DNA of 64,000 nucleotides from positions 2,766,001 through 2,830,000 of the forward strand of contig NC_019903.1 in the NCBI RefSeq assembly GCF_000243135.2, given 5' to 3'. Made by a program: the position numbers and the translations under genes. The notes under the pieces are model-generated. The model was given only the letters and a program-made list of their open reading frames with translations, did no database searches and was not told where the DNA came from. This DNA is from Desulfitobacterium dichloroeliminans LMG P-21439 (lineage in GTDB: Bacteria; Bacillota; Desulfitobacteriia; Desulfitobacteriales; Desulfitobacteriaceae). Shown piece by piece: positions 42,421 to 44,493 of this stretch (positions within the stretch are counted from its first letter, which is position 1; each line of letters begins with the position of its first letter).

Positions 42421-42484
42421 AAAGAGCAAGCTCTCTATTATGCCCTACCTGATTCGACAGGGGCGTAATTAGAGCTTGCTCTTT
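42421..42484 (+). terminator. Long hairpin downstream of rqcH
   Basis: Outer 14-bp stem AAAGAGCAAGCTCT / AGAGCTTGCTCTTT closes a second, imperfect stem (ATTATGCCCT / AGGGGCGTAAT) with a loop near 42450. The following TTTAAC is a weak U-tract. It probably ends rqcH. Confidence 0.6.
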
Positions 42485-42600: not shown

Positions 42601-42711
42601 TTATAGGACTGAATGAAAGGCCCAATTTAGAATCACGGCTAGGCCGGCTGCATAGGCAACCATTTCCACAAGAATTAGGGTCACACTATATTTGAACCGA
42701 GGTACTCCCAT
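42601..42711 (-). CDS. 36-residue single-helix membrane protein of the cytochrome operon
   Basis: ATG at 42711 reads 36 codons to TAA at 42601. A short basic N-terminus (MGVPRFKYS) is followed by one hydrophobic helix (~10-30, VTLILVEMVAYAAGLAVIL) and the tail NWAFHSVL; the helix contains a glutamate. The ribosome site AAGGGGTG overlaps the cytochrome b stop region and lies 6 nt upstream, and the gene begins 13 nt after the cytochrome b stop. This spacing suggests a small accessory subunit of the cytochrome b/c complex. No family is recognised, and it is too short for most gene callers. Confidence 0.65.
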   Translation of the reverse strand: MGVPRFKYSVTLILVEMVAYAAGLAVILNWAFHSVL

Positions 42712-42723
42712 CACTTTCACCCC

Positions 42724-43410
42724 TTAACGATTTCTTTCTCTCTTAATTCTTTCTAATTCAACGGGGTGCTCCTCTTCCATCTCCTCTCGATTCATCGTCC
42801 CCACATACCACACTTTACTCATGGGAAAGGATCTGGTATTAAAGTGGACATTATAAAAGTGCCAGATAAAAATGGCGCTAATAGCCAAGATAGCCTCATC
42901 TGTATGGGCATAGCGGGATGAATCGATCACCCAACGGGGTAGGAATTGAGTAACGAACTGAGGGTACCACATCATGAGACCGGACCCCCCCATGATAAAC
43001 ATCCCCCAAAATACTGCCCAGTAATCGAATTTCTCTTTATAGGAGTAGCGGTCGAAACGGGCAGGTTCCTTTCTGAATCCAAAAAAGTAACCTAGGTTCT
43101 GAAGGAGATCCTTGAAGTCTTTTCCATTGGGCATAATCGCCCAGGATTTTCTTTTGCCACCTAAAGGCACAACCACCAGATATATCAAGTGGTAAACACT
43201 TACGAAAATCATGAGCACAGCCCCCAGGAGATGGACATAGTAAAGATTATCAAAACCACCAAACGTGGACACAACCCCTTGGGCAAAACTGCTTTGTTCA
43301 AATTTAATCGGCAGACCTGTAAGGGTAAGAACAAAGAAACTGGTGAACATACCCATATGTTGAATTCGCTGATGAATATCAAATCGCTCATACACTTTAT
43401 CCTGTCCCAT
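42724..43410 (-). CDS. Membrane cytochrome b subunit (FdnI/b561-like)
   Basis: 228 residues with four transmembrane helices (~19-36, 57-80, 127-147, 170-192). Histidines placed in or near helices (H18, H60, H74, H169, H184, H189) are candidate ligands for two b haems. It resembles the four-helix cytochromes of formate dehydrogenase and related quinone-linked enzymes and should pass electrons between menaquinone and the multihaem cytochrome c encoded 4 nt upstream. Start at ATG 43410 is set by AGGAGG; a longer reading runs into the cytochrome c gene. No catalytic subunit gene is adjacent. Confidence 0.85.
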   Translation of the reverse strand: MGQDKVYERFDIHQRIQHMGMFTSFFVLTLTGLPIKFEQSSFAQGVVSTFGGFDNLYYVHLLGAVLMIFVSVYHLIYLVVVPLGGKRKSWAIMPNGKDFKDLLQNLGYFFGFRKEPARFDRYSYKEKFDYWAVFWGMFIMGGSGLMMWYPQFVTQFLPRWVIDSSRYAHTDEAILAISAIFIWHFYNVHFNTRSFPMSKVWYVGTMNREEMEEEHPVELERIKRERNR

Positions 43411-43414
43411 AGGA

Positions 43415-44050
43415 TTACCTCCTGTTGCGGGTCTGCAATATAGTTCGCAGCTCGCGATACAACTGCAATTCAATGTGAATCACCAACAAGGTCATAGCAA
43501 TTATCGTCAACCAAACAAAGAACTTAGCTGTATAGTACATGGGTTTTCCCGGCCCCATTGCATTTAGCTCGAAATGCTCCGTCCCTTGGGCAAAGCCTGG
43601 GGAGGGATTGTCATGGCACTTGGCACAGGTCTGGGGGATATTTTTCTTAGCTACCAGTGAATTAGGATGATCTTGCCCTAAAACCTCGTGGGCACTGTGG
43701 CAGTCTACACAACTTGCGGCTCTTTGGCTCCCAAGAAAAACCCCTTTACCATGAAAACTCTGCTGATAGGTTTCCGCCACTCGACCTGTATGGCAGGTGT
43801 TACACATTGCAACACTCTCCTTCTTTGTGACTTCCACCCCCTCTGGATGAGGATAGGCAGTCACTTCACTGTGACAGCTCGTGCAGCTCAGGGAGGCATG
43901 AATCGAGGCTTTAAGTTCGTTCACTTGATTACCGTGACACTGATTACAATCTACTTGCGCCGATACTGTTGCTCCGTCAAAGAGCAACAAGAAGCTGAAG
44001 ACAATAAAGAAAATAAGATCTTTAATTACCCATTGATTTTTCTTCGTCAT
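43415..44050 (-). CDS. Five-haem c-type cytochrome with signal peptide and C-terminal anchor
   Basis: 211 residues. An N-terminal signal sequence (~1-31) is followed by five CxxCH haem sites at 35-39, 56-60, 83-87, 114-118 and 142-146, then a C-terminal transmembrane helix (~174-195) and a short basic cytoplasmic tail. The haem part therefore faces outside. Extra histidines (H51, H100, H121, H159) could be distal ligands. It is not a NapC/NirT protein, which are anchored N-terminally. With cytochrome b downstream it forms a quinol:cytochrome c electron path; the final acceptor is unknown. Confidence 0.9.
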   Translation of the reverse strand: MTKKNQWVIKDLIFFIVFSFLLLFDGATVSAQVDCNQCHGNQVNELKASIHASLSCTSCHSEVTAYPHPEGVEVTKKESVAMCNTCHTGRVAETYQQSFHGKGVFLGSQRAASCVDCHSAHEVLGQDHPNSLVAKKNIPQTCAKCHDNPSPGFAQGTEHFELNAMGPGKPMYYTAKFFVWLTIIAMTLLVIHIELQLYRELRTILQTRNRR

Positions 44051-44209: not shown

Positions 44210-44251
44210 AAAAAAGAAGTAGAAACTATTGTTAAGTATAGTTTCTACTTC
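44210..44251 (-). terminator. Terminator behind the flavoprotein remnant
   Basis: 14-bp perfect stem GAAGTAGAAACTAT / ATAGTTTCTACTTC, 8-nt loop, then TTTTTTATG on the minus strand; GTATTTTTG on the plus side. It separates the pyr operon end from the cytochrome operon. The ~155 nt from here to the cytochrome c start must hold its promoter. Confidence 0.85.
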
Positions 44252-44340: not shown

Positions 44341-44493
44341 TTACTTAATGTAAGCAGCAGCGTTCTGGCCCGCAATCCGGCCGAACACGACGTTGACGGC
44401 GGCCGGGTTAGCTCCCCAAGTCCCGTCGTTTGCGCATTCACCTGCTGCAAACGTTTTCATCAGAATACGTTCGGATTTTTTGTGGTGAGTTAA
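44341..44493 (-). pseudogene. C-terminal remnant of a FAD-dependent flavoprotein (fumarate reductase type)
   Basis: An open frame of 50 codons ends TFAAGECANDGTWGANPAAV-NVVFGRIAGQNAAAYIK. AAGE followed by VFGRIAGxNAAAY is the hallmark C-terminus of the fumarate reductase/flavocytochrome c/urocanate reductase flavoproteins (FAD contact). Nothing of the remaining ~400+ residues is present: the frame closes at a stop at 44494 and the pyrE gene ends ~30 nt further on. It is most likely the scar of a deletion that removed a flavoprotein gene, leaving its terminator in place. Confidence 0.7.

Follow-up and report, generated by a model that had tools for sequence, protein, structure and literature searches.

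The minus strand of the window, a 64,000-nt stretch of the Desulfitobacterium dichloroeliminans genome, carries a cytochrome operon in which a multihaem cytochrome c gene is followed after 4 nt by a cytochrome b gene, and then by a 36-codon open reading frame. One terminator-like hairpin separates the operon from the pyr genes, and a second, about 117 nt downstream of the small ORF, closes the unit. The features are as follows.

42421..42484, minus strand: terminator-like hairpin of two 14-nt arms followed by a U-run (fold -34.6 kcal/mol, z -6.5)
42601..42711, minus strand: 36-codon ORF for a single transmembrane helix, predicted N-in/C-out (translation, conservation, dN/dS, fused-tail profile)
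42717..42725, minus strand: ribosome-binding site AAGGGGTGA, overlapping the cytochrome b stop (direct reading of the sequence)
42724..43410, minus strand: cytochrome b, 228 aa, Ni_hydr_CYTB, FdnI-like (Pfam PF01292, 46.3 bits)
43415..44050, minus strand: pentahaem cytochrome c, 211 aa (five CxxCH motifs; Pfam Cytochrome_C7)
44216..44251, minus strand: terminator-like hairpin between the pyr genes and the cytochrome operon

The first-pass annotation had placed a small membrane protein at the end of a cytochrome b/c operon, and both the frame, which translates as MGVPRFKYSVTLILVEMVAYAAGLAVILNWAFHSVL* (36 codons), and the gene order are borne out. The cytochrome b gene stops at TAA (42724-42726) and 12 nt separate it from the ATG, which begins on the 13th base as had been described. 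The ribosome site, which had been called strong, is present as the G-rich AAGGGGTGA but is an imperfect match to GGAGG. An alternative GTG start at 42720, giving a frame of 39 aa, is possible, although the alignment of Desulfitobacterium relatives favors the ATG at 42711. The 19-residue hydrophobic segment has a mean Kyte-Doolittle value of 2.33, and in 45 of 47 homologs the N-terminal flank of the helix is richer in lysine and arginine than the C-terminal flank; a single helix with a basic N-terminus was thus correctly recognized, and the bias predicts that this N-terminus is cytoplasmic (N-in).

The cytochrome b belongs to the PF01292/FdnI type. Its Pfam score compares with a cut-off of 30.1 bits, a profile search of the PDB returned FdnI (1kqf_C) as the sole match at E<=0.001 (E 4e-11), and histidine is found at all four haem-ligand positions of FdnI. 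The nearest named relative comes from a Desulfitobacterium MAG. Two further histidines, H74 and H189, are invariant in the cytochrome b alignment, and it is possible that they serve a third haem or a quinone contact. Elsewhere in the same genome (G000:C1:166971-167321) lies a PF01292-like frame that contains one in-frame TGA and scores under the family cut-off. The cytochrome c has an N-terminal signal and a C-terminal membrane helix, which in the structural model forms a terminal helix of 42 residues (169-210); a fold search with this model gave no significant match. Between pyrE and the cytochrome operon, a 39-codon frame on the minus strand (44341-44460) resembles the end of a FAD-dependent fumarate reductase/NadB-like protein, with the rest of the gene absent. 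It matches a NadB-looking ORF of the same genome weakly (44% over 27 aa, E 0.15) and is possibly a gene remnant.

It had been proposed that the same short frame would be found behind cytochrome b genes in Desulfitobacterium and its relatives, and this is the case, with start, length and hydrophobic pattern all conserved. Relatives of the cytochrome b were found at E<=1e-10 in 29 genomes (151 relatives searched), and the close matches have either a downstream frame of equal length and pattern or a version that is joined in frame to the end of cytochrome b (L023 and L028) or overlaps its stop codon (L024, L025, and L031). Copies that stand as separate ORFs are 33-39 aa long, and 36 of 37 are preceded by a ribosome site. 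A Ka/Ks near 1 had been set in advance as a refutation; dN/dS is instead well below 1, about 0.05-0.3 where measurable, dS being saturated in many other pairs. The L003/L004 pair gives dN 0.12 and dS 1.08, L014 and L016 differ by three silent changes and no replacements, and in most pairs the substitutions fall chiefly at third codon positions. Among Desulfitobacterium pairs dN is higher for the small ORF than for cytochrome b, so the helix evolves faster, yet under purifying selection. The 36-codon frame is a genuine gene, and a conserved one.

A scan of named genomes gave 79 loci spread over many phyla. To survey the distribution of the helix, referred to below as the module whether separate or fused, a module profile was run in three frames after each cytochrome b, and 111 cytochrome b cores were placed in a tree. 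In one Bacillota clade (support 100/94) the module accompanies 50 of 50 distinct cytochrome b genes, as a separate ORF in 32, overlapping the cytochrome b stop in 4 (L040 also overlaps, judged by its start codon), and as an in-frame C-terminal fusion in 14. Desulfitobacterium and Desulfosporosinus encode it separately, and other Bacillota have it as an extension at the C-terminus of cytochrome b. On the well-supported branches of the tree, the fused state must have changed at least three times, which implies repeated fusion or fission. All 51 clade loci have a multihaem c gene upstream, usually encoding 5 or 7 CxxCH motifs; the haem count is 5 in the window and 5-7 in nearly all clade members. 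Outside the clade no module was found. There, 50 of the 111 tree rows lack any fifth helix and 11 carry an unrelated C-terminal helix, continuing into a cytochrome c domain in six. The helix must therefore be dispensable for some cytochromes b of this kind, many non-Bacillota relatives having none. Among the module-less cytochrome b genes checked, there was no convincing case of a separate small-helix ORF behind them. Unrelated fifth helices were noted in other phyla at L059, L083, L088, L095, L097, and L101, and at L079, L087, L092, L096, L098, and L106.

Linkage to cytochrome b is exclusive in the genomes searched. A search of 398 genomes from the phylum with the module profile returned 48 matches, of which 44 lie directly behind a cytochrome b; these comprise every match at E<=0.0022, so none at that threshold lies elsewhere, and the other four are the weakest, partial, and above E 0.0023. 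Counted from the side of the partner, a match accompanies 44 of the 51 cytochrome b genes. The seven unmatched genes comprise two with a divergent fused copy (L150 and L152), three without any helix, one with an unrelated helix and a cytochrome c tail (L156), and one followed by an unrelated small-helix ORF (L151). This last ORF, in genome G248, encodes a 37-residue one-helix protein, MVEKLVEIFGSLVAVFVVFWLGYGLVGWRKGWYKQAK, with a GGAGGTG site, right behind cytochrome b. As the survey profile was originally collected from positions adjoining cytochrome b, a second profile was built from the 14 fused tails only in order to escape this circularity. Run against 2518 fragments, this second profile ranks the window ORF first at E 4e-6, with the runner-up at 0.43, and the same ORF is its top match in the whole genome, a single contig of 3.62 Mb (E 6e-4). 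Fusion to cytochrome b, together with the lack of any other genomic location among those searched, makes the protein almost certainly a subunit of a membrane electron-transfer complex. The natural fusions are stronger evidence of partnership, at the level of sequence, than the first-pass annotation had at its disposal. The partner, which had been given as a respiratory cytochrome complex, is specifically cytochrome b.

Conservation within the helix is concentrated at a few positions. Among 48 sequences, leucine is retained at positions 12, 24, and 28 in 47, 42, and 44, respectively; position 16 is glutamate in 32 and glutamine in 16, and position 20 is tyrosine in 45 and phenylalanine in 3. 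The internal glutamate pointed out earlier thus marks a position that is invariably E or Q, but a charge is not required there, as the 16 sequences with glutamine indicate. Residues E/Q16 and Y20 share one conserved face, and conservation follows a helical periodicity that was equally high in 147 of 10,000 shuffles. The orientation can be compared with that of FdnI, whose four helices leave the C-terminus in the cytoplasm. If the C-terminus of this cytochrome b is likewise cytoplasmic, an attached fifth helix must be N-in, in agreement with the prediction from the Lys/Arg bias. A structural model of a natural Syntrophomonas fusion (L048; mean pLDDT 86) contains a C-terminal helix at residues 241-267 with pLDDT of about 70-83, the tail being the weakest region. 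Residues 1-224 of this model align with FdnI 1kqf_C over 204 residues (Z 15.7, rmsd 3.0). VIA-align ranks FdnI first for the L048 model, followed by hydrogenase-1 cytochrome b, among the families that it lists, where absence is no exclusion.

The product of the small ORF is very probably the fifth transmembrane helix of cytochrome b in detached form, and would be a structural subunit of a CbcBA-type quinone:multihaem cytochrome c oxidoreductase. CbcBA consists of a b cytochrome and a multihaem c encoded as a gene pair, and is not known to have a small subunit. In Geobacter it is reported to be an oxidoreductase of the cytoplasmic membrane that links periplasmic multihaem cytochromes c with quinones (Joshi 2021, cited in PMC10553843). 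The window likewise pairs a gene for a b-type cytochrome with one for an anchored multihaem c; the likeness is one of gene make-up and published description. The complex would consist of the C-terminally anchored multihaem c, the four-helix FdnI-like cytochrome b, and the one-helix protein, with menaquinol as the probable electron carrier. In the membrane, the basic N-terminus of the helix would face the cytoplasm, and the conserved face made up of I13, E/Q16, M17, Y20, L24, and I27 would pack against cytochrome b. Bound in this way, presumably at a fixed stoichiometry, the helix would most likely stabilize cytochrome b as well as the contact that cytochrome b makes with the anchor of cytochrome c, much as CydX and TorE do for their partners.

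Surrounding genes are compatible with an oxidoreductase of this type. At the Syntrophomonas locus, the pair is found with a molybdopterin oxidoreductase, an iron-sulfur protein, a NarJ-type chaperone, ResB, and a cytochrome c assembly protein, and in Carboxydocella and Thermincola it is followed by a further multihaem c gene. By analogy with CbcBA, these contexts would fit a general-purpose module for electron transfer between quinone and extramembrane cytochromes, with the small helix as a subunit of its membrane part.

Several known systems resemble this arrangement in part. The earlier suggestion of a CydX-like small subunit is supported by the conservation and the natural fusions, but CydX is an analogy and not a homolog. 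Both are tiny single-helix proteins at the end of a respiratory cytochrome operon that belong, or in this case would belong, to a haem complex as small subunits. The neighbors in the window, however, are a PF01292 cytochrome b and a multihaem c and not CydAB, there is no Pfam match to the CydX family, and fusions to the partner are common in the module. TorE/NapE is a small one-helix protein that works with a membrane-anchored multihaem c and improves the anchoring and assembly of its cytochrome partner (PMC6134056). It differs in that its partner is TorC/NapC, in Proteobacteria, whereas the module is fused to cytochrome b; here too there is no Pfam match, and the window cytochrome c is a Cytochrome_C7 protein anchored at its C-terminus. 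FdnI, the gamma subunit of E. coli formate dehydrogenase-N, shares the fold and the histidine positions of the cytochrome b, but its four helices work with FdnGH, in place of which the present system has a cytochrome c and a fifth helix. Mco of ANME archaea also clusters a hydrogenase-type cytochrome b with a cytochrome c of 7-11 haems, although it is archaeal and VhtC-derived, and the sections of PMC9012536 consulted describe no small helix. Pfam and NCBIfam gave no credible match for any of 23 module members, their short length limiting sensitivity, and no description of the small protein was found in the full-text literature, whose coverage leaves out most subscription papers. On these two grounds the protein constitutes a new family, although small one-helix subunits as such are known, and its distinguishing trait is the dimorphism between split and fused forms.

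Alternatively, the helix may be catalytic and not only a brace. In that case E/Q16 and Y20, placed within the cytoplasm-facing half of the bilayer, would line a menaquinone or proton site near the cytoplasmic b haem. The complete conservation of both positions on one face (E/Q and Y/F, each in 48 of 48), the N-in orientation, and the cytoplasmic location of the quinone site in FdnI speak for this possibility. Conserved polar residues in helices also serve packing, however, the contact is predicted only, and many cytochrome b relatives manage without the helix, so we consider a catalytic function possible but rather unlikely. A broader and still speculative form of this idea is that the 36-residue subunit completes a quinone or proton site through the E/Q-Y pair, and that the place of the fifth helix has been taken repeatedly, whether by the product of a separate gene, by a fused tail, or, in other phyla, by unrelated helices, some with a cytochrome c domain.

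A transient factor for assembly or haem insertion into cytochrome b, as opposed to a stoichiometric subunit, would be in keeping with work cited in PMC6134056, in which small helices such as CydX affect the haem centers of their partners. This is improbable given the fusion in 14 of 50 clade members, which ties the helix to cytochrome b permanently at 1:1. A small regulator that acts independently and happens to share the operon would account for the many species in which a separate ORF follows a ribosome site of its own, but it is most unlikely for a protein that is fused in several lineages and never occurs away from cytochrome b in 398 genomes. Short length and a place at the operon's end are all that recommend a chance ORF, a leader peptide, or a decaying cytochrome b fragment, an explanation barely worth entertaining against a dN/dS well below 1, conserved length, the nearly universal ribosome site, and phylum-wide linkage that includes every cytochrome b gene of the clade; on conservation and dN/dS the first two are rejected.

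As the structural subunit that we favor, the protein would add a missing component to a respiratory complex of many anaerobic Bacillota. Its hosts include Desulfitobacterium, Desulfosporosinus, Syntrophomonas, Carboxydocella, and Thermincola, a group with metal- and electrode-respiring species among its members. A complex expressed or solved without the 36-residue protein may be unstable or incomplete. With separate, overlapping, and fused forms all occurring naturally, the family lends itself to a clean test of how small respiratory subunits originate from their partners or become merged with them. At L037, L038, L039, L041, and L071, two cytochrome b modules lie within about 5 kb of each other, one with a separate or overlapping helix and the other with a fused helix, and where checked each is preceded by a heptahaem c gene.
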